In this document: positions 7,708 through 20,734 of the stretch, one piece after another
Numbering within the stretch: the stretch's first letter is position 1
Layout: each line of letters starts with the position of its first letter
Source of the DNA: a virus
Strand: one strand, 5' to 3'
IMG/VR virus record: IMGVR_UViG_3300045999_007039
Location: 1 to 30,966 of that record
Length of the DNA stretch: 30,966 bases
Notes under the pieces: model-generated
The model's database searches: none
What the model was told of the DNA's origin: nothing
Seen by the model: only the letters and a program-made list of their open reading frames with translations
Translations under genes and position numbers: made by a program

Positions 7708-7911
7708 ATGTCTATAGCAGTAAAAATAAATTCACAAAATCAACAAAAAGTAAGAACAATGACACCGGTATCAATATCGGCGTCGAAACTTGTAAATTTG
7801 ACAGATGTATCTGTCGTTGACGGAAATAATAATTCTGTATTGGTGTATAATTCAACAACCGAAAAATATGAAATTAAAGCTCTTCCAATAATATTTGGAG
7901 GAACATTCTAA
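7708..7911 (+). CDS. Small hypothetical structural-module protein, 67 aa
   Basis: A 67-residue protein with the segment LVNLTDVSVVDGNNNSVLVYNSTTEKYEIK. The pattern 'L.dv...g..ngsvLvYn..t.kyei' is common at the N-terminal or shaft region of phage fibre proteins, so it may be a detached fibre module or an adaptor. No strong ribosome binding site precedes its ATG, which suggests translation coupled to the gene before it. Its TAA overlaps the next ATG by one base (TAATG), tying it to the 1365-aa fibre gene. Exact function unknown. Confidence 0.65.
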   Translation: MSIAVKINSQNQQKVRTMTPVSISASKLVNLTDVSVVDGNNNSVLVYNSTTEKYEIKALPIIFGGTF

Positions 7912-10900
7912 TGTCAAATACAACAACAATAATTCTTAAAAATTCAGGTACTAGCGGAAATATACCACTATCATCAAATTTACAATACGGTGAAATAGCA
8001 ATCAACTATGCTGATGGTGTATTATACTATAAAGCACCTAATGATCAAGTCTTAAGTATTAGTGGTAGTGGTGGTGCTGCATTTGATACAGCCAACTTAG
8101 CCATAACTATAGGCTCAGCAGCATTTGATACAGCCAACTCTGGTATAATCATAGGCTCAGCAGCATTTGATACAGCCAACTCTGGTATAATCATAGGCTC
8201 AGCAGCATTTGATACAGCTAACTCTGGTATAATCATAGGTTCAGCAGCATTTGATACAGCTAACTCTGGTATAATCATAGGCTCAGCAGCATTTGATACA
8301 GCTAACTCTGGTATAATCATAGGCTCAGCAGCATTTGATCGTGCTAATCTTGCAAACGGCACAGCAAACACAGCATTAGTTATTGCTCCAGCTGCATTTG
8401 ATAGAGCCAATACTGCAAATATAGTTGCATCTGCTGCGTTTGATCGTGCTAATCTTGCTAACGGCACAGCAAACACAGCATTAGTTATTGCTCCAGCTGC
8501 ATTTGATAGAGCTAATCTTGCAAACGGTACAGCTAACACAGCGTTAGTGGTTGCATCATCTGCATTTGACAGAGCTAATCTTGCTAATAGCACAGCAAAC
8601 ACAGCATTAGTTATTGCTCCAGCTGCATTTAATAGAGCTAATCTTGCAAACGGTACAGCAAACACAGCAATAGTCATTGGGTCAGCTGCATTTGATAGAG
8701 CTAATCTTGCAAACGGTACAGCAAACACAGCGTTAGTCATTGGGTCAGCAGCATTTGATCGTGCTAATCTTGCAAACGGTACAGCTAACACAGCATTAGT
8801 AGTTGGATCATCAGCATTTGACAGAGCTAATCTTGCTAATGGCACAGCAAACACAGCGTTAGTCATTGGGTCAGCAGCATTTGATAAAGCAAACGCAGCT
8901 TTTTCTTCAAATGGTGGATCTATATCAGGTAGTGTTGAGATTCAAGGAAATTTAGATGTAACTGGAAATTTGAATGTATTGGGAAATGTAGTTACATTCA
9001 ATACAGTTTCGATTGCAATAGATGATCCTATATTACTTTTGGCTAATAATAATACCGGTGATGTTACTGACTTAGGATTCACAGCACATTATGCAAATGC
9101 TACATCCGAAATAGTTCACACGGGTTTATTTAGAGATCATCAAACAAAAGAGTGGTTTTTATTTAAAGAATATAACGTACATTTCCTGCATCAAGGTGAA
9201 AGCGGTCATATTGACACTACAGGAAATAATTTTACAATAGATACGCTAAATGCGAACATAAGAACAAGCAATCTAATACTCAACGGCCAAAATACTAGTA
9301 TTTGGATATCAACATCATTTGATCGTGCCAATCTTGCTAACAATACAGCTAACATAGCATTAGTAGTTGGATCAGCTGCATTTGATAAAGCTAATAGTGC
9401 AAATATAATTGCGTCTGCTGCATTTGATCGTGCTAATCTTGCTAATGGTACAGCAAATACAGCATTAGTAGTTGGATCATCAGCATTTGATAGAGCTAAC
9501 TTAGCTAATAACACAGCTAACACAGCATTGATTATTGCTCCAGCTGCATTCAATAGAGCTAATCTTGCAAACGGTACAGCTAATACAGCATTAATAGTTG
9601 GATCATCAGCATTTGATAGAGCTAACTTAGCCAACGGCACAGCTAATACAGCATTAATAGTTGGATCATCAGCATTTGATAGAGCTAACTTAGCCAACGG
9701 CACAGCTAATACAGCATTAGTTATTGCTCCAGCAGCATTTGATAGAGCGAATATCGCCAACAACATTCCTGTTCAAAAAGCAGGGACATTGATATCAACA
9801 AGAAATAAATTGAATTTTATTGAAGCGGGTGGAACTACAATCACTGTATCTGATGATTCTGCTGGAGATAGGGTAAATATTACAATTTCATCAACAGCGT
9901 CTGGTGGTGATGCTAGTGCAGCATTTGATAGAGCTAACTTAGCCAACGGCACAGCTAATACTGCACTTATTGTTGCAATTGCTGCGTTCGATAAAGCTAA
10001 TACAGGAACGGGTGGACCTTCTTCTAATTCAATAGTTTTTGTATCAGACAATCCACCCGCAAATGTATCGAATGGTTTTTTATGGTGGAATAGTTCTGAT
10101 GGTTCTCTTTACATAAACTACGGAGATGCGGATACTGTTCAATGGGTTGTCACTAACCCTTATTTGAGTGCAGATCCTAACACAGTACCTTCTTATGCAA
10201 ATGTTGCGCCTGCATTTAATCAAGCAAATTCTGCTTATGATAGAGCAAATGTTGCTAATAATATTCCTGTACAAAAAACAGGGACTTTGATATCAACAAG
10301 AAATAAATTGAATTTCATCGAAGGTAGTGGAACTACAATCACTATATCAGACGATTCTGCTGGAGATAGGGTAAATATTACCATTTCATCAACAGCGTCT
10401 GGTGGTGATGCTAGTGCAGCATTTGATAAAGCTAATAGTGCAAACATAATAGCATCTGCAGCATTTGATCGTGCTAATCTTGCAAACGGTACAGCTAATA
10501 CAGCATTAATAGTTGGATCATCAGCATTTGATCGTGCTAATCTTGCAAACGGTACAGCTAATACAGCATTAGTAGTTGGATCAGCAGCATTTGATAGAGC
10601 TAACTTAGCTAACGGTACAGCTAACACAGCATTAGTTATTGCTCCAGCAGCATTTAATAAAGCAAATGCATCTGCACAGAATGCATTTTCAATAATAATT
10701 GCAAATGGAACATCGCTTGTAGCTGATAGCAATAACGATACACTAACTATATTAACATCAGGTAACGTTGCTATTACCGCAGATGCAGCAGGCGACAATC
10801 TAACATTTGATTTAACAACTACTGGTGTTATTGCTGCAACATATGGCTCATCAACGATTGTTCCAGTATTTGTCGTTGATTCAAGAGGACGTTTAACATC

Positions 10901-12008
10901 AGTTACAAATACGACGATTGATACAACAATAGCAACTGCTGCGTTTGATCGTGCTAATCTTGCTAATAGCACAGCAAACACAGCGTTAGTCATTGGGTCA
11001 TTAGCATTTGATCGTGCTAATCTTGCAAACGGTACAGCTAATACAGCATTAGTTGTCGGATCAGCAGCATTTGATAGGGCTAACTTAGCCAATGGCACAG
11101 CTAATACAGCATTAGTAGTTGGATCAGCAGCATTTGATAAAGCAAATGCATCTACACAGAATGCATTTTCAATAATAATTGCAAATGGAACATCGCTTGT
11201 AGCAGATTCTAACGCTGATACATTAACTATATTAACATCAGGTAATGTGTCTATTGTTGCAGATGCTTCTGGTGATAACCTAACATTTGATTTGACAACT
11301 ACTGGTGTTACTGCTGCAACATATGGCTCATCGACAATTGTTCCAGTATTAACTGTTGATGCAAGAGGTCGTCTAACATCAGTTACAAATACAACCATAG
11401 TTGCGTCAGCTGATCTATCATCTGTTGTTTTGAAAACAGGAAATACTATGACAGGCAATCTTGTCATGTCTGGTGCAAATGTTACATTTTTAGCTTCGAC
11501 AGTAGCTTTTTCTAATTCTGGCATATATTGGTCAAACACACCAACGGTAGGAATTGAAGCTGCAATATACGCAAGTGACGCAAATACAATATCTTTAGCT
11601 ACAGCAAAAACTGAGCGAATTAGAGTATTTGCTAATGGTACCGTGAATTTATTTGATAATATTTTACAAAGACCAAATTTCCGTGATTATTCTCTATATA
11701 GAACAGATTTAGGAAATGCAACTGGATCAATTACGATAAATTTAGAAAATGGTAACTTTTTTACAGCAACATCAACGGGTACAACAACGTGGACTTTTTC
11801 AAATCCACCAACAGGAACAACCGCAGGAGGATTTGTTTTAGAATTGACCAATGGAGGGGCACAGACTCAAAATTGGCCTCCTGCTACGAAATGGCCATCA
11901 GGAACTGCACCCACATTAACAACTTCTGGTGTTGATGTTTTAGTCTTTATTACGGATGATGCAGGCACCACTTGGAGAGGTGTTGCTTCTATGTTGGATA
12001 GTAAATAA
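7911..12008 (+). CDS. Large modular tail fibre protein with AFDRAN repeats, 1365 aa
   Basis: A long fibre protein. Residues 1-56 are an N-terminal cap (PLSSNLQYGEIAINYADGVL) as in other marine phage fibres. Residues 57 to about 331 are a shaft of 14-residue (AFDTANSGIIIGSA) and 21-residue (AFDRANLANGTANTALV...) units. Residues 332-468 are a beta domain (GNLDVTGNLNVLGNV, then IDDPILLLANNN). A second repeat shaft follows (469-618), then two copies of an IPVQK..TLISTRNKLNFIE module and a tandem 160-residue duplication (about 844-1163). The C-terminal 200 residues, ending GGFVLELTNGGAQTQNWP and TWRGVASML, look like a fibre head domain. GGAGGA (7897-7902) gives a strong start signal. It precedes the RCC1 gene without a gap and is likely a main host-contact fibre. 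Both 14 and 21 are multiples of 7, suggesting a trimeric heptad-based shaft. Confidence 0.85.
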   Translation: MSNTTTIILKNSGTSGNIPLSSNLQYGEIAINYADGVLYYKAPNDQVLSISGSGGAAFDTANLAITIGSAAFDTANSGIIIGSAAFDTANSGIIIGSAAFDTANSGIIIGSAAFDTANSGIIIGSAAFDTANSGIIIGSAAFDRANLANGTANTALVIAPAAFDRANTANIVASAAFDRANLANGTANTALVIAPAAFDRANLANGTANTALVVASSAFDRANLANSTANTALVIAPAAFNRANLANGTANTAIVIGSAAFDRANLANGTANTALVIGSAAFDRANLANGTANTALVVGSSAFDRANLANGTANTALVIGSAAFDKANAAFSSNGGSISGSVEIQGNLDVTGNLNVLGNVVTFNTVSIAIDDPILLLANNNTGDVTDLGFTAHYANATSEIVHTGLFRDHQTKEWFLFKEYNVHFLHQGESGHIDTTGNNFTIDTLNANIRTSNLILNGQNTSIWISTSFDRANLANNTANIALVVGSAAFDKANSANIIASAAFDRANLANGTANTALVVGSSAFDRANLANNTANTALIIAPAAFNRANLANGTANTALIVGSSAFDRANLANGTANTALIVGSSAFDRANLANGTANTALVIAPAAFDRANIANNIPVQKAGTLISTRNKLNFIEAGGTTITVSDDSAGDRVNITISSTASGGDASAAFDRANLANGTANTALIVAIAAFDKANTGTGGPSSNSIVFVSDNPPANVSNGFLWWNSSDGSLYINYGDADTVQWVVTNPYLSADPNTVPSYANVAPAFNQANSAYDRANVANNIPVQKTGTLISTRNKLNFIEGSGTTITISDDSAGDRVNITISSTASGGDASAAFDKANSANIIASAAFDRANLANGTANTALIVGSSAFDRANLANGTANTALVVGSAAFDRANLANGTANTALVIAPAAFNKANASAQNAFSIIIANGTSLVADSNNDTLTILTSGNVAITADAAGDNLTFDLTTTGVIAATYGSSTIVPVFVVDSRGRLTSVTNTTIDTTIATAAFDRANLANSTANTALVIGSLAFDRANLANGTANTALVVGSAAFDRANLANGTANTALVVGSAAFDKANASTQNAFSIIIANGTSLVADSNADTLTILTSGNVSIVADASGDNLTFDLTTTGVTAATYGSSTIVPVLTVDARGRLTSVTNTTIVASADLSSVVLKTGNTMTGNLVMSGANVTFLASTVAFSNSGIYWSNTPTVGIEAAIYASDANTISLATAKTERIRVFANGTVNLFDNILQRPNFRDYSLYRTDLGNATGSITINLENGNFFTATSTGTTTWTFSNPPTGTTAGGFVLELTNGGAQTQNWPPATKWPSGTAPTLTTSGVDVLVFITDDAGTTWRGVASMLDSK
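8079..8901 (+). repeat. Repeat shaft 1: 42-bp and 63-bp tandem units
   Basis: The block opens with six 14-residue units (one AFDTANLAITIGSA and five identical AFDTANSGIIIGSA). It then holds eight 21-residue units of the AFDRANLANGTANTAL type, with one 14-residue unit (AFDRANTANIVASA) after the first. Neighbouring DNA copies are nearly identical. Confidence 0.9.
9315..9764 (+). repeat. Repeat shaft 2: 63-bp tandem units with one 42-bp unit
   Basis: A second array of 21-residue AFDRANLANxTANxAL units, with one 14-residue AFDKANSANIIASA unit. It ends in AFDRANIANN, directly before the first IPVQK module. Copies near 9615-9660 and 9680-9720 are almost identical in DNA (gatagagctaacttagccaa). Confidence 0.85.
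9765..9930 (+). repeat. Direct repeat A1 (166 bp) encoding an IPVQK/LNFIE beta module
   Basis: Nearly identical to 10263-10428, offset 498 bp. It encodes IPVQKAGTLISTRNKLNFIE followed by a TTITVSDDSAGDRVNITISS strand pair. A diverged copy is in the 207-aa gene (20111-20734). Confidence 0.85.
10263..10428 (+). repeat. Direct repeat A2 (166 bp), partner of 9765-9930
   Basis: Second copy of the IPVQK/LNFIE module. It is preceded by a segment (PAFNQANSAYDRANVANN) that also precedes the module in the 207-aa fibre paralogue. Confidence 0.85.
10441..11400 (+). repeat. 480-bp tandem duplication in the large fibre gene
   Basis: Bases 10441-10920 and 10921-11400 are two in-phase copies of a 480-bp (160-codon) unit: three 63-bp AFDRAN repeats followed by a beta module (AFSIIIANGTSLVADSN...FDLTTTGV...DSRGRLTSVTN). 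The 3' halves align without gaps at a constant offset of 480, for example 10661 with 11141. A diverged copy of the beta module lies near the end of the 376-aa fibre gene. Confidence 0.9.
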
Positions 12009-15000
12009 ATGTTGTTAGTTGAGAAACTCATATCAATAAATCCTACAATTTCTCAAGCAAATAATAATATGTTATATGCTTGGGGAAATATGAGATTTGG
12101 TCAATTGGGAAATGAAAGCTCTTGGGACACGCCTGGTAAATTAGACACATCTAGTTGGATAAGCGTAAGTGCTGGAAAAAATCATGTAGCTGCCATTAGA
12201 AGCGATTATAAATTATTCACATGGGGATATAATGGTCGCGGTAATCTGGGCGATGGTACAACGACAGCTCGTTCATCACCTGTTCAAATAGGAACATCAA
12301 GCTGGACAAGTGTTAGTGCTGGAGAATCACACACAGTAGCCATTAGAAGCGATGGTGCGATATTTGCTTGGGGCTATAATAATAGAGGTCAACTTGGTGA
12401 TGGTACAACAACAAATAGATCATCACCCGTACAAATAGGCACATCAAGCTGGACTAGTGTTAGTGCTGGTGGTACTCATACAGCTGCTATTAGATCTGAT
12501 GGTTTGTTATTTGCGTGGGGATACAATACTACTGGTCAACTTGGTACAGGAACTTTTATAGAACCTACAGCTATAGATGGATTAAGTTGGATAAGTGTTA
12601 GTTCTGCCGGTGTTCATACAGCTGCTATTAGATCTGATGGATTATTGTTTACATGGGGTAATAATACTAATGGTCGTCTTGGTGATGGCACAACGACAAA
12701 TAGATCATCGCCCGTGCAGATAGGCACATCAAGTTGGACAAGTGTTAGTGCAGGACAATCACACACAGTAGCCATTAGAAGCGATGGTGCTTTATTTACA
12801 TGGGGTTATAATAATTCAGGTCAACTTGGTGATGGTACAATGACAAATAGATCATCGCCCGTACAAATAGGCACATCGAGCTGGACTAGCGTTAGTGCTG
12901 GACTTACACATACAGCTGCTATTAGATCTGATGGATTATTATTTACATGGGGGTACAATGAGCTAGGATTTCTTGGTAATGGCGAATCAGGAATAGTACC
13001 AAATCAAATTGATTTACTAAGCTGGACGACTATAAGTTGTGGTCAATATCATACCGCTGCGATTAGATCTGATGGATTATTGTTTACATGGGGTCGTAAC
13101 TCATATGGTCGTCTTGGTGATGGAACGACGATAGACAGATCATCACCTGTACAAATAGGCACATCAAGCTGGACAAGCGTTAGTACTGGTGGAACGCATA
13201 CAGCTGCTATTAGATCTGATGGATTATTGTTTACGTGGGGTCGTAACAGTTATGGTCAACTTGGTGACGGTACAACGACAAATCGCTCATCGCCTGTACA
13301 AATAGGCACATCAATCTGGACAAGCGTTAGTGCTGGTAGTATTCATGCGACTGCTGTTAGAACTGATGGTGCATTATTTACATGGGGTCGTAACAGTTTT
13401 GGTCAACTTGGTGACGGTACAACTTCGGATAAATCATCACCTGTACAAATAGGCACATCAAGCTGGACTAGTGTTGGTTCTGGTTTTATTCATACACTTG
13501 CTATTAGATCAGATGGATCGCTATTCACCTGGGGTCGTAATAATTACGGACAACTAGGCGACGGTACAAAAACAGATCGCTCATCACCTGTACAAATTGG
13601 TACATCAAGCTGGGCAGTTGTTAGTGCTGCTGTTTCTCATTCAGCTGCTATTAGATTTGGTGGTTCGCTATTTACTTGGGGTATTAATAGTTCAGGTGAA
13701 CTTGGTGATGGAACACTCTCATCCAAATCATCACCTGTACAAATAGGAACATCAAGTTGGACAATTGTTAGTTTATCCCACTTCAATAATTTTTCATTAG
13801 CTATCAGGTCTGATGGTGCTTTATTTGCATGGGGTCTTAATAGTTCAGGTCAACTTGGTGATGGTACAACGACAACTCGTTCATCGCCTATACAGATAGG
13901 CACATCTAGCTGGATAAGCGTTAGTGCTGGTAGTATTCATACAGCTGCTATTAGATCTGATGGCGGATTATTCACATGGGGTCGTAACAATTTCGGTCAA
14001 AAAGGATTTATTATAAATCGTTCATCACCTGTTCAAATAGGTACATCTAGTTGGACTAGTGTTAGTGCTGGGGGTCGTAATCAGGGGATAGGTCATACAG
14101 CTGCTATTAGATCTGATGGCGGATTATTCACATGGGGTGTTAATAGTTCAGGTCAACTTGGTGATGGCACAACGACAAATAGATCATCACCTGTTCAAAT
14201 AGGTTCATCAAGTTGGACAAGTGTTAGTGCTGGTGGAACTCATACAGCTGCTATTAGAACTGACGGTGCTTTATTTACGTGGGGTTATAATAGTGGTGGT
14301 CGTCTGGGTGATGGTACAACAACAAATAGATCATCACCCGTTCAAATAGGAACATCAAGCTGGACAAGTGTTAGTGCTGGCGCCTATCATACAGCTGCTA
14401 TTAGATCGGATGGCGGATTGTTTACATGGGGTAGTAATAGCAACGGTCAACTTGGTGACGGTACAACGTCAGCTAAGTCATCACCTGTACAAATAGGTAC
14501 ATCAAGTTGGACAAGTGTTAGTGCTGGCGCCTATCATACAGCTGCTATTAGATCGGATGGCGGATTGTTTACATGGGGTGGTAATAGCTCAGGTCAGCTT
14601 GGTAGAACAATAAACCAATCATCACCTGTTCAAATAGGCACATCAAGTTGGACTAGTGTTAGTGCTGGTGGCACTCATACTGTTGCTATTAGATCTGATG
14701 GCGCACTATTTGCATGGGGTCTTAATAGTTCAGGTCAAATAGGCGATGATACAAATACAATTAGATCTTCACCTGTACAAATAGGAACATCAAGTTGGAC
14801 AAGTGTTAGTGCAGGTGGAACTCATACAGCTGCCATTAGAACTGACGGTGCTTTATTTACGTGGGGTAATAATAGTACGGGTCGTCTTGGTGATGGTACA
14901 ACGACAGCTCGTTCATCACCTGTTCAAATAGGAACATCGAGTTGGACTAGTGTTAGTGCTGGAATGGGTGGTTATCATACAGCTGCTATTAGAAATGATG

Positions 15001-16175
15001 GTGCTTTATTTACATGGGGGGGTAATAATGCAGGAGAATTGGGTAATGGCACAACGACACAAAGTTTATCACCTATTCAAATAGGCACATCAAGTTGGAC
15101 AAGTGTTAGTGCAGGTCGCTCATTCACCGCGGCTATTCGATCAGGCGGTTCATTATTTACATGGGGTCTTAATACTCCTGCGGTACCTGTGCTTGGTAGA
15201 CCTAGTGGAATGAGTAACATAACTCAAATAGGAACATCAAGCTGGACAAGTGTTAGTGCTGGAGTTAATCATACAGCTGCTATTAGGTCTGATGGTTTAT
15301 TATTTACCTGGGGTCGTAATATTTCAGGTCAACTTGGAGATGGCTCATTAATAAACTCAAATTCACCTGTTCAAATAGGCACATCTAGTTGGACAAGTGT
15401 TAGTGCTGGTGGAACTCATACAGCGGCTATCAGGTCTGATGGTGCTTTATTTACATGGGGTCTTAATAGTTCAGGTCAACTTGGTGATGGTACAACGACA
15501 GGTAAATCATCACCTGTTCAAATAGGTTCATCAAGTTGGACAAGTGTTAGTGCTGGTGGAACTCATACAGCGGCTATCAGGTCTGATGGTGCTTTATTTA
15601 CATGGGGTTATAATGGTTCTGGTCAGCTAGGCGATGGTACAACGACACGTAAATCATCACCTGTACAAATAGGTACATCAAGTTGGACAAGTGTTAGTGC
15701 TGGAAACGGACACACAGCTGCTATTAGAACTGATAGTGCATTATTTACGTGGGGATATAATGGTCAAGGTCGTCTTGGCGATGGCACAACAACAAATAGA
15801 TCATCACCCGTTCAAATAGGAACATCAAGCTGGACAAGTGTTAGTGCAGGACAATCTCACACAGTAGCCATTAGAAGCGGTGGTGCATTATTTGCTTGGG
15901 GTAGTAATGCAAATGGTCGTCTTGGAGATGGTACAGGAACAAATAGATCATCACCCGTACAAATAGGAACATCAAGCTGGACAAGTGTTAGTGCTGGTGC
16001 TACGCATACAGCAGCTATTAGGTCTAATGGTTTATTATTCACCTGGGGTCTTAATAATTACGGTCGTCTTGGAGATGGCACAACAACAAATAGATCATCA
16101 CCCGTTCAAATAGGATCATTTAGTTGGAAAAGTGTAAGTGCCGGTGGCGATCATACAACAGGACTAACTTTTTAA
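12009..16175 (+). CDS. RCC1-repeat beta-propeller protein, putative phage adhesin, 1388 aa
   Basis: Almost the whole protein consists of RCC1 (regulator of chromosome condensation) type repeats. I count 28, starting at MLYAWG (base 12069) and ending at [12 protein letters not shown]. The usual unit is 49 residues: [18 protein letters not shown], then [18 protein letters not shown], then [12 protein letters not shown]. RCC1 repeats form seven-bladed propellers, so 28 repeats could make four. Repeats 1, 4, 7, 14, 18 and 22 lack the standard LGDGTTT loop. Only about 20 residues precede the first repeat, and no catalytic or attachment domain is visible. The ATG follows the fibre gene's TAA with no gap, and a tail-assembly-chaperone-like gene follows. 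This position suggests a receptor-binding component at a fibre tip. The repeat call is firm; the adhesin role is inferred. Confidence 0.8.
12069..16172 (+). repeat. 28 tandem RCC1 repeats, about 147 bp each
   Basis: Tandem units of mostly 147 bp (49 codons). Some neighbouring copies are nearly or fully identical over more than 70 bp, for example 14361-14432 with 14508-14579 and 15387-15461 with 15534-15608, both at an offset of exactly 147. This points to recent unequal recombination or gene conversion. Confidence 0.9.
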
Positions 16176-16190
16176 AGTGAGGAAACATTC

Positions 16191-16691
16191 ATGGCTGAAT
16201 GGGTATATATACAAAACAACGAAATACTTGAATATCACGATAAATTGCCTAAATCATGGAGAACTATTTCTGGTTTAGATAAAGCAAATATTACTTTTTT
16301 AAATTCTGTAGGTTGGTTTAAAGTAGAAAAACAATATCAATCTTTTGATGAAAAAACACACAGAACAGATGGATACAACTACGAAATACAACCAGATAAA
16401 GTTATAGAAACCCTAAATTTAATCGAATTGAGCATAAACGAAATAAATGAGATAGAAAATAATAGAAAACAATCTTTTTTCTCACACTTAAAAACTGAGA
16501 GAAATAGAAGACTATTAGAGTCTGATTGGACTCAATTGAATGATGTAATAGAAAAAAACACTCAACAATGGACAAATTCTTGGAAAACTTATAGACAGGA
16601 ATTAAGAGACATAGTGCAAAAATATGAACAAATGGACATGTACAATATAGAAATGATTGAATGGCCCAAATTAAATCTAATCGATGAATGA
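16191..16691 (+). CDS. Tail (fibre) assembly chaperone-like protein, 166 aa
   Basis: The C-terminal half carries the signature of the phage tail assembly chaperone family (Pfam Phage_tail_APC type): R..RLLESDWTQL at about 103-116, then WKTYRQELRDI at 131-141 and a final IEWPKL. The N-terminal half (LPKSWRTISGL, then SVGWFKVE) also fits proteins of this class encoded just after fibre genes. Such proteins are thought to help fold or trimerise tail fibres and need not be in the virion. It follows the RCC1 gene by 15 nt, with a GAGGAAA ribosome binding site, so the RCC1 protein or the fibre before it is the likely client. The family assignment is by motif; the client is inferred. Confidence 0.7.
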   Translation: MAEWVYIQNNEILEYHDKLPKSWRTISGLDKANITFLNSVGWFKVEKQYQSFDEKTHRTDGYNYEIQPDKVIETLNLIELSINEINEIENNRKQSFFSHLKTERNRRLLESDWTQLNDVIEKNTQQWTNSWKTYRQELRDIVQKYEQMDMYNIEMIEWPKLNLIDE

Positions 16692-16717: not shown

Positions 16718-16725
16718 CATAAATA
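16718..16725 (+). promoter_or_regulatory. T4-type late promoter core CATAAATA
   Basis: CATAAATA matches NATAAATA (7 of 8 with TATAAATA). It lies in the 78-nt gap before the enzyme island, 44 nt before the ATG at 16770, so the island could be transcribed late, with the virion genes. Confidence 0.5.
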
Positions 16726-16769: not shown

Positions 16770-17804
16770 ATGCATCCGATTGATCAAGAACTAAATCTAA
16801 TGATTCGTGGTCGTTTTGACGAAGCTTGGAAAATTTCAGAAGAATTAGAAAAAACAGAACCAAATAATCTAAGACATGTTTTCAATAGAGGTTGGTTTCT
16901 AATCAATCAAGGTAAATTTCAAGAAGGATTTCAAGCACTCGAAGCAGGTCGATTTTTAAATGTCTATGGTTCTAGAAAAATTCCTACAGACAAACCAATT
17001 TGGAAAAAACAAGATCTTACAGATAAAATCGTAATAATTGCTTTAGAAGCGGGTTATGGCGATCAAATAATTTTCGCAAGATTTGCTACAGAAATAAAAA
17101 ATCTTGGCGGTAAATGTATATTATGTTGTGACAAATCGTTACATGCTATGTTCTCACGAATCGAAGGTGTAGAAAAATGCATCACGTTAAACGAAGTGAG
17201 AGAAACATATCACGACTATTGGATTCCTGGATTTAGTTGTAGCTGGCTATTTGGTCATACATTCGAAACACTTCCAAATAAACCCTATCTATCAGCGAAT
17301 CCATTAAGCGTTCCTCTCTGGAAAACAATGTTGAATTCAAAAAAGATAAAGATTGGAATTAGGTGGAGCGGCAATCCTAAATTTGAACATCAACAATTTA
17401 GAATTTTTCCACCGGAACCATTAATCAATTTTCACAAATATGATGAATTGCAATTATATTCCCTACAAAGAGATAGTGATTTAAGAGAATTACCAGAATC
17501 AATTAGTGATCTTCAACATTTACTTTTGTCATGGGAAGATACTGCAGCAGCAATAGAAAATCTTGATCTTGTAATTACATCTTGTACAGGAATTGCTCAT
17601 CTAGCATCAGCCATGGGTAAACCTACTTGGGTTATAGTTCCTATTCTTCCATATCATGTATGGGCATACGGAGAAGATCATAGTCCATGGTATCAGAATA
17701 CAACTAAAATCTATCGACAAAAGAAATTTGGTGATTGGACCGAAACTTTTGAAAAATTAGAAAACGATTTAATTGAAAAATTTGATTTGAAAAGAAAGGA
17801 TTAA
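16770..17804 (+). CDS. TPR-containing glycosyltransferase, family 9 (heptosyltransferase)-like
   Basis: Residues 1-60 look like tetratricopeptide helices (GRFDEAWKISEELEKTEPNN, then FNRGWFLINQGKFQEGFQAL). From about 85 the protein resembles the glycosyltransferase family 9 / ADP-heptose:LPS heptosyltransferase fold: GYGDQIIFARF at 95-105, IGIRWSGNP at 195-203 starting the C-terminal Rossmann half, and TSCTGIAHLASAMGKPTW at 270-287 forming the nucleotide-sugar site. A TPR head on a GT9-like body is a familiar architecture in marine bacteria and their phages. The start is supported by AAGGTG at 16760-16765. The sulfotransferase gene begins 2 nt after its stop, so the two are probably co-translated. 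The sugar donor and acceptor cannot be told from sequence; LPS, another surface glycan, or virion fibres are all possible. Confidence 0.75.
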   Translation: MHPIDQELNLMIRGRFDEAWKISEELEKTEPNNLRHVFNRGWFLINQGKFQEGFQALEAGRFLNVYGSRKIPTDKPIWKKQDLTDKIVIIALEAGYGDQIIFARFATEIKNLGGKCILCCDKSLHAMFSRIEGVEKCITLNEVRETYHDYWIPGFSCSWLFGHTFETLPNKPYLSANPLSVPLWKTMLNSKKIKIGIRWSGNPKFEHQQFRIFPPEPLINFHKYDELQLYSLQRDSDLRELPESISDLQHLLLSWEDTAAAIENLDLVITSCTGIAHLASAMGKPTWVIVPILPYHVWAYGEDHSPWYQNTTKIYRQKKFGDWTETFEKLENDLIEKFDLKRKD

Positions 17805-17806
17805 TT

Positions 17807-18601
17807 ATGAAAACCGTGCATTTTATTGCAGGATTGCCTCGTTCTGGTTCAACAATGCTGTGTAATATTTTGAAACAAAATCCTGATATACACTCAGAAG
17901 CAGTTTCATCACTATCATCAATTGTTGGTTCAATTCATGCTAACTGGAATTCATTTGAAACAAATAAAGAATATCCAAACGACAAAGCAAAAACTGGTGC
18001 TATTTCAGGAGTCATTCAAGGATACTACAGTCACATTGAAAAGAATATTGTTTTTGACAAAGATCGTCAATGGATTTCTCAAATAGGATTGCTTGAAAAT
18101 ATTCTACAAAAACAGATAAAAATTGTATGCATGGTACGCAATCCAGCAGAAATTTTAGCATCATTCGAAAAACTTAGAAAAAATAATCCAAACTTTTTTG
18201 CTCTTCCAGATCAATCTCTAAGAGAATCTTCGACAATTGCATCAAGAGCATACTTCTACGCGGGACCTAACGGACCATTAGGTTTAGCTCATGCTCACAT
18301 GAAAGATGCAATAACTATGGGATATCTTGATAGACTATTATTCGTAGATTATGGAAGATATTGCAATAGTCCTAAATCACAAACCAAAAGAATATACGAC
18401 TTCTTTGAAATTCCTCAATTTGAACATACATTTACAAAAATTGAACAAGTTGAAAAATATAACGATCTTGCCGTAGGATTACCAAATCTTCATAAGATCA
18501 AACCGAAATTAGAGAAAACAACTGTTAATTGTGTAGAATATCTTGGTCTTGATTTGTATGAACAATACAATAGAGAAATATTCTGGAATGCTTGGATTTA
18601 A
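17807..18601 (+). CDS. PAPS-dependent sulfotransferase family protein, 264 aa
   Basis: The N-terminus carries a 5'-phosphosulfate-binding P-loop, GLPRSGSTML (9-18). IKIVCMVRNPAEILASFEKL (104-123) matches the 3'-phosphate-binding region, with Arg111 and Ser119 in the expected places. A late segment, RLLFVDYGRYCNSP...RIYDFFEIP, matches the typical C-terminal part of the fold. The protein would transfer a sulfuryl group from PAPS to a hydroxyl or amine acceptor, most likely a glycan given the neighbouring glycosyltransferase; the acceptor is unknown. The ATG is preceded by AAAGGA. It is soluble, with no signal peptide or membrane anchor, so it acts in the infected cell's cytoplasm. The adenylylsulfate-kinase-like domain two genes downstream may be linked to its cofactor. 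Confidence 0.8.
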   Translation: MKTVHFIAGLPRSGSTMLCNILKQNPDIHSEAVSSLSSIVGSIHANWNSFETNKEYPNDKAKTGAISGVIQGYYSHIEKNIVFDKDRQWISQIGLLENILQKQIKIVCMVRNPAEILASFEKLRKNNPNFFALPDQSLRESSTIASRAYFYAGPNGPLGLAHAHMKDAITMGYLDRLLFVDYGRYCNSPKSQTKRIYDFFEIPQFEHTFTKIEQVEKYNDLAVGLPNLHKIKPKLEKTTVNCVEYLGLDLYEQYNREIFWNAWI

Positions 18602-18671
18602 TGACTCGTTAGAAGTCCACAATAAAATACGATAATTTTATAAAAGAACATATTATGAGAGGAATATATTA

Positions 18672-19274
18672 ATGACACCAGAACACAATAAACTCAATAT
18701 GGGTTGTGGTTACAAAAAACTAGAAGATCATTGGAATGTAGATGTCGATTCAAAATGCAATCCAGACGAAGTATTTGATTTCGAATCAACACCATGGCCA
18801 TGGGAAACAGACTTTTTTGAAAGCATTCATGCAGATAATGTTCTAGAACACTTGGGTCAAAATCCAAAAGTATTCACAAACATAATCAAAGAAATGTATA
18901 GAGTGAGTAAAAACGGCGCTCAATGGTATATCTGTGTGCCACATCATCGATGCGATTTATTCTACGATGATTATACGCATGTTCGATTCTTGACTGAAAA
19001 AACATTTAGAATGTTTGATCAAACAGTAAATATCAAATCCATTAAAAATAAACTAAGTGATAGCACTTTTGGTATACAGCATGATATTGATATTGAAGTT
19101 TTTGATGTAACATACAATATTGTTAATTATTGGAGATCGCAACAAGAACAAGGTATGCTGGGTGCAAAACAACTTGACATAAATTTAAATACAATGAGTA
19201 ATGTTGCAGAATCAGTAAATATTTTTGTGAAAGTACATAAACCAGGTCGAATGAAAGATTATAGATTGACTTAA
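18672..19274 (+). CDS. SAM-dependent methyltransferase (class I), 200 aa
   Basis: Motif I is LNMGCGYKKL (8-17). An acidic strand end WNVDVDS (21-27) is in the position that contacts SAM ribose. DNVLEHL (55-61) matches the motif of Methyltransf_11/predicted SAM methyltransferases, followed by IKEMYRVSKNGAQWYICVPH, a typical strand 5 region. The protein is short and has no DNA-target recognition domain, so a small molecule or glycan is a more likely substrate than DNA. It lies between a sulfotransferase and a kinase/nucleotidyltransferase, as in surface-polysaccharide gene clusters. A GAGAGGA ribosome binding site (18657-18663) supports the ATG. Substrate unknown. Confidence 0.75.
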   Translation: MTPEHNKLNMGCGYKKLEDHWNVDVDSKCNPDEVFDFESTPWPWETDFFESIHADNVLEHLGQNPKVFTNIIKEMYRVSKNGAQWYICVPHHRCDLFYDDYTHVRFLTEKTFRMFDQTVNIKSIKNKLSDSTFGIQHDIDIEVFDVTYNIVNYWRSQQEQGMLGAKQLDINLNTMSNVAESVNIFVKVHKPGRMKDYRLT

Positions 19275-19291
19275 CCTTTGGAGAATATATT

Positions 19292-20068
19292 ATGACAAGA
19301 ATTCTAATTATGGGACTACCTGGCTCAGGCAAAACAACCATAGCCAAAAAAATATGCGAACTACTACCCGATACATACTACCTCAACGGAGATGAAGTAA
19401 GAAAAAAATATGATGATTGGGACTTCTCTAGAGAAGGCAGACTTCGTCAAGCTGATAGAATGCGCGATCTAGCAAAAGAAAGCTATCATTCGTTCGTTCT
19501 AAACGACTTCATATGTCCATTGCCTGAGATGAGAGAAAAAGTAGATCCTGACTGGATCGTTTGGATGGACACGATAGAAAAAGGTCGATATGAAGACACT
19601 AATAAAGCATTTGTTCCACCAAATGAATATGATTTTAGAATAACTGAACAAAATGCAGAAAAATGGGCTCCATATATTGTGGAAAAAATACTCAATAATA
19701 CTAGAAGACCTACTTTTGATTGGAGAAAAGAAACAGTTCAAATGCTTGGTAGATGGCAGCCATGGCACCAGGGACATCGTGCATTGTTTGAAAGATTGCT
19801 AGAGAAAAAAGAACAAGTGTGTATAATGGTTAGAGACTGTCATGGTTGGAATGATTCAAATCCTTTTAATTTCGATCAAGTATCTAATGCAATTAAAAGA
19901 GATCTTGAACCACTATATCAAGGAAGATTTCATATCATGCTAGTTCCAAATATAACACATATTGGATACGGTAGAAGTGTTGGTTATACAATTCAAGAAG
20001 AGACATTTGACGACTCAATAACTAAAATATCAGCAACTGAAATAAGAAAAAACATGGGACTAAAATAA
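19292..20068 (+). CDS. Adenylylsulfate kinase-like plus nucleotidyltransferase fusion, 258 aa
   Basis: Two domains are visible. Residues 1-135 are a P-loop kinase like CysC: GLPGSGKTTIAKK (8-20), LNGDEVR (31-37), then DFSREGRLRQADRM (44-57) and FICPLPEMRE (73-82), which follow the order of APS-kinase motifs. Residues 148-258 are a HxGH nucleotidyltransferase: GRWQPWHQGHRALF (153-166), where HQGH is the catalytic signature, and ISATEIRKNMG (246-256), the usual C-terminal motif. In length and motifs this second domain looks more like the NMN/cytidylyltransferase class than a full ATP sulfurylase. It could phosphorylate and activate a small molecule or sugar, or help supply PAPS to the sulfotransferase at 17807; the sequence does not decide. 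The start has a GGAG site. Confidence 0.7.
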   Translation: MTRILIMGLPGSGKTTIAKKICELLPDTYYLNGDEVRKKYDDWDFSREGRLRQADRMRDLAKESYHSFVLNDFICPLPEMREKVDPDWIVWMDTIEKGRYEDTNKAFVPPNEYDFRITEQNAEKWAPYIVEKILNNTRRPTFDWRKETVQMLGRWQPWHQGHRALFERLLEKKEQVCIMVRDCHGWNDSNPFNFDQVSNAIKRDLEPLYQGRFHIMLVPNITHIGYGRSVGYTIQEETFDDSITKISATEIRKNMGLK

Positions 20069-20072
20069 ATTA

Positions 20073-20090
20073 TTTCATAAATATATGAAA
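20073..20090 (+). promoter_or_regulatory. Palindrome overlapping a late promoter core
   Basis: TTTCATAAATATATGAAA is a 7-bp perfect inverted repeat (TTTCATA / TATGAAA) around a 4-nt loop AATA. The late promoter core at 20076-20083 lies inside it. Confidence 0.5.
20076..20083 (+). promoter_or_regulatory. T4-type late promoter core CATAAATA
   Basis: CATAAATA in the 42-nt gap between the enzyme island and the 207-aa fibre gene, 27 nt before the ATG at 20111. It would restart late transcription of the virion genes downstream of the island. Confidence 0.55.
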
Positions 20091-20110: not shown

Positions 20111-20734
20111 ATGGCTTTAAATTTTCCACAAAATCCCACTACGGGAGATGTATATCAAACTTATGTGTTTGATGGAACTAAATGGGTTTCTGAAGCCACA
20201 TTAGTTATCGATAGTGTTGCACCAGCATTTAACAAAGCAAATGATGCGTATAGTACGGCTACATTAGCATTTGATCGTGCTAATGTAGCTAATACCGTAC
20301 CCATAGAAAAATCTGGCGTTCTCATATCAAGTAAAAACAAAATAAACTTCATAGAGGGAACAAACACCACAATAACGATAACAGATGATTCTTTGGGGAA
20401 TAGAACTAATATAACAATTAGCGCAAGTGGTAGTGGCGGCGGTGGCGGTGGCGGTGGTTCAAGTGAAATCAATACTTTCTTCACTACTAGTTCAAGTTAC
20501 ACTATGACAAGTTCAGATCAAGCTATAATATCAAATGCTACGACTGATATTACCATAACACTACCATCAGCCGCAGTTGCAAAAAGTTATTATTTTTTTA
20601 ATGGTGGTTCTGGTTCAATGACACTTGAAACTGTAAGTAGTCAGTTGATAAATAACGATACAAGTTTAATTTTACGATATAATGGATCATCGTGTAGACT
20701 AGTATCTACTGGATCTAAATTTTTAATAATATAA
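20111..20734 (+). CDS. Short tail fibre-like protein, 207 aa
   Basis: The N-terminus (NFPQNPTTGDVYQTYVFDGTKW) is a common opening of phage fibre-like proteins. It is followed by short AFDRAN-type helices (AFNKANDAYSTATLAFDRAN) and a diverged copy of the module found twice in the 1365-aa fibre (SGVLISSKNKINFIEGTNTT, then TITDDSLGNRTNITIS). A run of eight glycines separates this from a C-terminal beta domain (ITLPSAAVAKSYYFFNGGSG to the end), which resembles small fibre tip domains. The segment order matches bases of about 10030-10425 in the 1365-aa gene, so this is a short paralogue of its middle. The ribosome binding site is weak. It is likely a minor fibre or fibre adaptor. Confidence 0.75.
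   Translation: MALNFPQNPTTGDVYQTYVFDGTKWVSEATLVIDSVAPAFNKANDAYSTATLAFDRANVANTVPIEKSGVLISSKNKINFIEGTNTTITITDDSLGNRTNITISASGSGGGGGGGGSSEINTFFTTSSSYTMTSSDQAIISNATTDITITLPSAAVAKSYYFFNGGSGSMTLETVSSQLINNDTSLILRYNGSSCRLVSTGSKFLII

Follow-up and report, generated by a model that had tools for sequence, protein, structure and literature searches.

The window, a 30,966-nucleotide stretch of viral DNA (IMG/VR record IMGVR_UViG_3300045999_007039), carries four intact enzyme ORFs spanning positions 16770–20068; these and all other features named below lie on the + strand. The first encodes a glycosyltransferase with N-terminal TPR-like helices and a GT-B (GT9-like) domain (GT; 16770–17804), the second a PAPS-dependent sulfotransferase (ST; 17807–18601), the third a class I methyltransferase (MT; 18672–19274), and the fourth a protein in which an APS-kinase-like P-loop domain is joined to an NMNAT-like nucleotidyltransferase (KN; 19292–20068). 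On their 5′ side lie a long fibre ORF of 1365 aa (F1365; 7911–12008), whose C-terminal part has matches in relatives, an RCC1-repeat protein of 1388 aa (12009–16175; Pfam RCC1, 27 stretches, 1026.7 bits), which we propose as a fibre component and substrate, and a tail-assembly chaperone-like protein (Phage_tail_APC, PF16778, 49.1 bits; 16191–16691). On the 3′ side of KN, a short fibre-like ORF of 207 aa (20111–20734) weakly matches a trimeric adhesin domain. As megablast of the region against phages returned no match, relatives were found by protein searches. In these relatives the C-terminal domain of F1365 is encoded upstream of the chaperone and RCC1 genes, and in locus L278 it is fused to RCC1, with the match falling inside RCC1 ORFs.

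Motif scanning identified the T4-type late-promoter core ATAAATA upstream of GT (16719–16725) and again between KN and the short fibre gene (20077–20083). The window holds six copies of this motif against 15.4 expected by chance, every one on the + strand, and three of the five copies inside the coding span, including the two named here, fall within its intergenic 1.1% (p = 1.3e-5). Scans for sigma-70 promoters and terminators gave results at chance level. In this window, KN apparently shares one late transcription unit with GT, ST and MT. A preliminary description of this DNA had placed a GT9-like enzyme with TPR, a PAPS sulfotransferase, a class I methyltransferase and a CysC-like/HxGH fusion between the tail-assembly chaperone and the short fibre gene, with a late-promoter core at each boundary, and our analysis bears out all of these points.

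By sequence, GT scored under the Pfam cut-offs both for GT9 (PF01075, 17.4 bits vs 22) and for TPR (PF13371, 15.7 bits). Its predicted structure (pLDDT 92.4) is globular and combines paired TPR-like helices with a GT-B domain; residues 1–62 are alpha-helical in the model, and residues 80–341 adopt the GT-B fold of GT9 type, with a Z-score of 17.6 to both 3tov and 1psw, which were also the top Foldseek matches. The nearest folds are those of GT9 WaaF/3tov and of TibC (Z 16.1 to 4rap_B). In a 50-row alignment, Cys272 was the sole invariant cysteine and none was found among the nearly invariant columns, while the invariant Asp98, within a GxGD motif, is a candidate counterpart of the catalytic Asp110 of TibC. 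As modeled, GT is soluble and TPR-bearing, and resembles FlmG and TibC instead of lipid-carrier enzymes. The conserved GT-B core by itself cannot tell a protein from a glycan acceptor.

FlmG of Caulobacter crescentus is a TPR + GT-B flagellin O-glycosyltransferase of 596 aa, whose TPR part (~310 aa) binds the substrate and which places pseudaminic acid on flagellin (PMC7591256). The window's GT is likened to it by domain plan only, namely N-terminal TPR-type helices followed by a C-terminal GT-B domain, and in the mode that we propose a repetitive filament protein would likewise be glycosylated in the cytoplasm, without a carrier, ahead of export or assembly; GT differs, however, in its ~80-aa TPR part, its RCC1 partner, and its coupling to MT and ST. 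TibC, a GT9-like protein glycosyltransferase of the bacterial autotransporter heptosyltransferase (BAHT) group that acts on a repetitive surface protein, possesses a four-cysteine iron-finger and an N-terminal beta-barrel (PMC4358343). GT shares its GT9-like GT-B fold but lacks both the iron-finger cysteines and the beta-barrel, carrying TPR-like helices instead, and its substrate is putative.

ST was assigned well above the Pfam cut-offs (PF00685, 65.5 vs 22 bits; PF13469, 57.6 vs 27 bits) and matched PHROG 27463 (1.1e-52). Across 35 ST sequences, the residues Gly9, Pro11, Arg12, and Gly14 of the 5′-phosphosulfate loop and Arg111 and Ser119 of the 3′-phosphate R...S site were invariant. Among solved structures, its nearest relatives were the protein-tyrosine sulfotransferases (TPST1, 6.5e-14), a similarity of profiles only. 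MT matched PHROG 6636 and is fused to GT in a clade of relatives; across 33 MT sequences, Asn9, the GxG motif I (Gly11-Cys12-Gly13), and Asp24, the acidic residue after strand 2, were invariant. Additional GT and MT genes separate ST from MT in the relatives L005, L007, and L083; in L277, cysD-, cysN-, and cysC-type genes adjoin ST, with GT, MT, and RCC1 nearby.

The protein searches yielded 57 deduplicated viral GT loci, 43 with at least 2 kb on both sides and 50 with at least 4 kb downstream. RCC1 was present in all 43 well-flanked loci, at most 1 kb away in 41, and among the 50 with sufficient downstream sequence MT was found in 49 and ST in 39. The reverse test recovered GT in every RCC1-seeded locus whose RCC1 match stays clear of contig ends. 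By contrast, none of 27 terminase-seeded control loci contained RCC1, GT, ST, MT, or KN, although 12 of these terminases are 82–95% identical to that of the window. GT is fused to MT in ~25 loci, including the isolate BUCT-ZZ01, which also carries RCC1; GT-ST fusions occur in L155 and L278 and the inverse ST-GT order in L063 and L281. The phage S-SRM01 has RCC1 and ST together with a divergent GT. Mirror-tree correlations, computed on unequal subsets and only supportive, related GT similarities more closely to those of MT (rho 0.86) and ST (0.75) than to those of the terminase (0.52). GT-linked RCC1 repeats further share the motif SSPVQ[IV]G and a tryptophan at column 4 (98% in phages, 94% in bacteria), which is not a leading residue in GT-less repeats. 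Hence GT, MT, and usually ST form one cassette, partnered with the upstream RCC1-repeat protein (12009–16175); the cassette tracks this ORF and not the phage backbone, and is exchanged together with the fibre.

Homologous RCC1-GT-MT/ST groups are also present in Bdellovibrionales chromosomes, where GT was found in 11 of 141 genomes, with RCC1 directly adjoining in 9. Tat-type signals, identified by motif calls only, were carried by 12 of 13 RCC1 proteins where the genome has GT and by 0 of 17 where it does not (p = 1.5e-7); the RCC1 subtype may have been passed down jointly with the Tat signal within one clade. The Patescibacteria-type phylum search yielded one genome in 380. Some bacterial RCC1-GT pairs adjoin fibre genes whose products, by BLAST comparison only, are similar to the Bdellovibrio MAT prey-recognition fibres; for these fibres Pfam returned no useful family, and just one was picked up by regular-expression scans for MAT motifs. 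Their C-termini and the F1365 tip look alike, but we do not claim homology between them (hhalign probability 1.9%, E 0.025).

The phages Jenst, LIBA6276, SP-15, and SeaP2 likewise have RCC1 repeats within their tail-fibre block or next to it, but GT, ST, and MT are neither annotated nor detected there and the repeats lack W...SSPVQ[IV]G. Together with PS6, these unrelated phages carry RCC1 fibres without such a cassette, and decoration is therefore dispensable for RCC1 fibres generally. In mycobacteriophages, a phage-encoded enzyme attaches glycans to structural proteins of the virion itself, capsid and/or tail (Freeman et al. 2023, as described in PMC11652166); here, by comparison, the RCC1 fibre is the putative target, and methyl- and sulfotransferases are further members of the cassette. 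Our literature search found no system that decorates RCC1.

Since GT, ST, and MT travel with the RCC1 fibre, and their relatives stand beside exported bacterial RCC1 proteins, the phage probably decorates its own fibre chemically. We consider it likely that the cassette is dedicated to protein decoration of the RCC1-repeat fibre, which would be O-glycosylated in the cytoplasm, the sugar then being methylated and sulfated; synthesis of a glycan bearing sulfate and methyl groups is plausible. According to this model, the RCC1 protein would be produced late and, still in the host cytoplasm, fold into successive beta-propellers (27 repeats, ~four propellers), onto which GT would dock via its N-terminal helices. 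The GT-B domain would move a sugar from a host nucleotide-sugar onto recurrent hydroxyl side chains of the RCC1 repeats; MT would then methylate and ST sulfate that sugar (or ST might sulfate the protein), and the decorated protein would be assembled on the tail fibre. The proposed benefit may be altered receptor binding, protection, or no binding to the phage's own progeny. KN would play no part in this scheme.

The preliminary description had counted KN in a four-gene unit, and its suggestion of checking co-occurrence in related phages gave a divided answer: GT, MT, and usually ST indeed occur together with RCC1, but KN mostly stands apart. KN lies outside the conserved unit: of the 67 viral loci with KN that remained after deduplication, 49 are without GT, and KN was present in only 16 of 50 GT loci. 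KN-bearing isolates include Stenotrophomonas and Xanthomonas phages in which the RCC1, GT, ST, and MT queries were unmatched. These distributions weigh heavily against a four-enzyme pathway in which KN provides PAPS to ST, despite the proximity of its N-terminal half to APS kinases by both sequence and fold (PF01583, 32.5 bits vs a cut-off of 21.1) and its place in the same apparent late unit here. The match to the apsK equivalog TIGR00455 is far under the cut-off (27.7 vs 138.7 bits), and the NMNAT-like half, with its HxGH/ISATEIR signature, is much smaller than ATP sulfurylase. Given its independent distribution, we rejected KN as a minimal PAPS synthase as the best reading, and consider that pathway very unlikely. 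Somewhat less improbable, though still doubtful, is that ST acts on RCC1 tyrosines in a TPST-like manner and MT on protein, giving three separate modifications rather than one decorated glycan: the best profile match of ST among solved structures points this way, but ST and MT are each found fused to GT, and the tyrosine at repeat column 28 is conserved in just 15%.

The preliminary description had also left two targets for the glycan, the virion's own fibres and the host envelope. The former is strongly supported and is narrowed by linkage to the RCC1 ORF; the latter is weakened by the bacterial cassettes beside Tat-type RCC1 proteins and by the soluble, TPR-bearing nature predicted for GT. 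Phage genes for enzymes that modify receptors are frequently found in linkage with those for receptor binding, and the linkage would also be expected if the enzymes made a glycan bound by RCC1. Late remodelling of the host envelope that masks receptors, with RCC1 linked only as the fibre recognising that glycan, would fit the joint exchange of cassette and fibre. We nevertheless regard it as unlikely, considering the Bdellovibrionales groups, the globular GT model with its TPR-like helices, the lack of a lipid-carrier or flippase-type gene in the window's cassette, and a predicted timing that is late for host masking. Phage fibre regions are also hotspots for cargo genes, and the additional GT and MT genes of the three relatives noted above would suit a mobile surface-glycan island functionally unrelated to RCC1. 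This reading is largely refuted by the linkage to RCC1 in 43 of 43 well-flanked loci, the conserved order, the three types of fusion, the recurrence of this partner in bacteria, and the RCC1 subtype common to GT-linked proteins, and we give it hardly any weight.

Decoration of the RCC1 fibre may also be one instance of a broader phenomenon. With somewhat more confidence than doubt, we propose a previously undescribed modification system for RCC1 beta-propeller repeats, in which a TPR-bearing GT with MT and ST would decorate folded RCC1 proteins in the cytoplasm, whether phage fibres, Bdellovibrionales proteins exported folded through Tat, or Patescibacteria-type surface RCC1 proteins. The finding ties phage RCC1 fibres to bacterial RCC1 surface proteins and identifies for RCC1-repeat fibres a partner system that can be put to the test, for which BUCT-ZZ01 on Synechococcus elongatus is a suitable isolate. 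If phages bring their own fibre-decorating enzymes, host recognition would include a chemical layer that is unpredictable from the fibre sequence alone.

All four enzyme ORFs described earlier at 16770-20068 proved intact. The first (GT, 16770-17804) encodes a 344-aa protein with weak sequence matches to GT9 and TPR models; its AlphaFold model, built from a 50-row alignment, was confident (pLDDT 92.4) and predicts TPR-type helices at residues 1-62 and a GT-B fold at residues 84-341. Foldseek placed E. coli WaaF and a Veillonella GT9 enzyme at the top, followed by TibC and, more weakly, by SPINDLY and an OGT homologue, and VIA-align gave Z scores of 17.6 to GT9s and 16.1 to TibC. The sulfotransferase (ST, 17807-18601) is clearly PAPS-dependent by sequence, with cofactor-site residues invariant in the alignment, the methyltransferase (MT, 18672-19274) carries the class I motif, and KN (19292-20068; PHROG 10255) combines APS-kinase-like and NMNAT-like domains in one protein. 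The tail-assembly chaperone gene APC (16191-16691) lies 5' of the cassette and is itself preceded by a 1388-aa ORF built of RCC1 repeats (12009-16175). The late promoter core claimed at each island boundary was also recovered, as ATAAATA occurs in the gaps that precede GT and the short fibre gene. Since this motif is depleted in the window (6 found versus 15.4 expected), confined to the + strand and sited in these gaps, it supports late transcription of the enzyme genes as one unit.

Viral relatives were collected for each enzyme, all genes were placed by tblastn and duplicates were removed, leaving 57 loci with GT. An RCC1 gene was present in all 43 GT loci flanked by 2 kb or more of sequence on each side, lying within 1 kb in 41, and conversely GT was found in every RCC1-seeded locus whose RCC1 match stays clear of contig ends. 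RCC1, GT, ST, MT and KN were all absent from 27/27 terminase-seeded control loci, each of which includes sequence upstream of the neck genes and 12 of which have terminases 82-95% identical to the window's. Therefore, the cassette goes with the RCC1 fibre and not with the phage.

Among viral GT loci with 4 kb or more downstream, MT was found in 49/50 and ST in 39/50, most commonly in the order RCC1-GT-ST-MT, with occasional rearrangements (L128, L156, L165). A single GT-MT polypeptide occurs in about 25 loci of one clade, including isolate BUCT-ZZ01, whose tail-fibre block has the fused gene after a 'BNR repeat' (RCC1) gene; GT-ST (L155, L278) and ST-GT (L063, L281) fusions were also identified. 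GT identities correlated with those of MT (rho 0.86) and ST (0.75) more than with those of terminase (0.52), albeit over unequal subsets. GT, MT and ST belong together. In contrast, KN accompanied only 16/50 viral GT loci, while 49 of 67 viral KN loci lacked GT, and it stands in another gene context in isolates that include Clavibacter phage 33 and Stenotrophomonas phage DLP6. The co-occurrence expected in related phages was thus borne out for GT, MT and ST with the RCC1 fibre but not for KN, and the proposed four-gene unit reduces to three enzyme genes plus RCC1. KN itself (also L036-L114, L158 and L159) is common among viral contigs and recurs in phages of Stenotrophomonas, Xanthomonas and Clavibacter.

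Scanning bacterial and archaeal genomes yielded six loci. L276 comes from a T4-like phage, its contig having been binned with a Bacteroidetes MAG; each of the remaining five again has GT near RCC1, mostly with ST or MT nearby. In one small-genome bacterium, cysD-, cysN- and cysC-type genes stand immediately 5' of ST (L277:3981-7498), with GT, MT and RCC1 nearby, resembling a self-contained sulfation locus. Among 141 Bdellovibrionales genomes, 90 encode RCC1 and 11 encode GT, and the two genes directly adjoin in 9 of these 11, on contigs of up to 4.1 Mb; several pairs are accompanied by MT, an FkbM-type methyltransferase or ST. In the tenth genome (G042), GT sits amid housekeeping genes with two Tat-type RCC1 proteins elsewhere, and in the eleventh (G142) GT is divergent and falls outside the clade. 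Because the phage GTs group as a single clade with strong support, separate from bacterial GTs, the tie to RCC1 spans a deep split. The bacterial pairs adjoin genes for very long fibre-like proteins, which have C-terminal domains related to one another and resemble Bdellovibrio MAT prey-recognition fibres (L279:426-8558, L312:10472-15649, L313:9553-11622, L314:9242-13291, L315:1-2103 and L316:1-7596). A further stretch, L283 (ON073792.1, Aphanizomenon phage Yong-DA), holds polysaccharide-export, sugar-transferase and dockerin genes with few phage genes, and the record may be a bacterial contig.

A twin-arginine signal motif was detected at the RCC1 N-terminus in 12/13 proteins from GT-bearing genomes versus 0/17 from GT-less ones (Fisher p=1.5e-7). 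These calls rest on the motif, proteins that share a genome or clade do not count as independent, and the GT-less proteins were taken from the best RCC1 scores; N-termini in GT-less genomes were mostly Sec or lipoprotein-like. Since Tat exports folded proteins, it would be the route for a protein that cytoplasmic enzymes modify once it has folded. In most bacterial RCC1 proteins the Tat-type signal is followed by a short conserved motif resembling (F/A)W(K/R)K (N-termini of L312, L313, L314, L280, L315, L316, L337 and L338). Phage and bacterial GT-linked RCC1 repeats share Trp at column 4 and SSPVQ[IV]G, both missing from GT-less repeats, and the two serines of SSPVQ[IV]G are, speculatively, candidate acceptors.

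The closest functional model for GT is FlmG, which binds flagellin through its TPR part and uses its GT-B part to glycosylate it in the cytoplasm (PMC7591256). TibC, which glycosylates a repetitive adhesin (PMC4358343), is a fold relative, but its iron-finger and barrel are missing from GT. Virion glycosylation by phage enzymes is already known, as reported for mycobacteriophages (PMC11652166), and RCC1 fibres of other phages occur without such enzymes; our literature search, which covered few subscription papers and no preprints, found no paper in which such a cassette acts on RCC1 proteins.

The preliminary description left the glycan on either virion fibres or the host envelope. Envelope remodelling by these enzymes is possible, but leaves the bacterial RCC1-GT arrangement unexplained, while the 43/43 linkage favours the fibre and narrows it to RCC1. 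In L278:4332-8802 (a Nomurabacteria genome), a domain resembling a phage-fibre tip and related to the C-terminus of the window's 1365-aa long fibre ORF (7911-12008) is fused N-terminal to RCC1 repeats, which suggests that RCC1 is associated with the tip of the fibre. We infer that GT would glycosylate the RCC1 fibre protein, that MT and ST would then methylate and sulfate the sugar, and that the decorated RCC1 protein would be mounted on the tail fibre.
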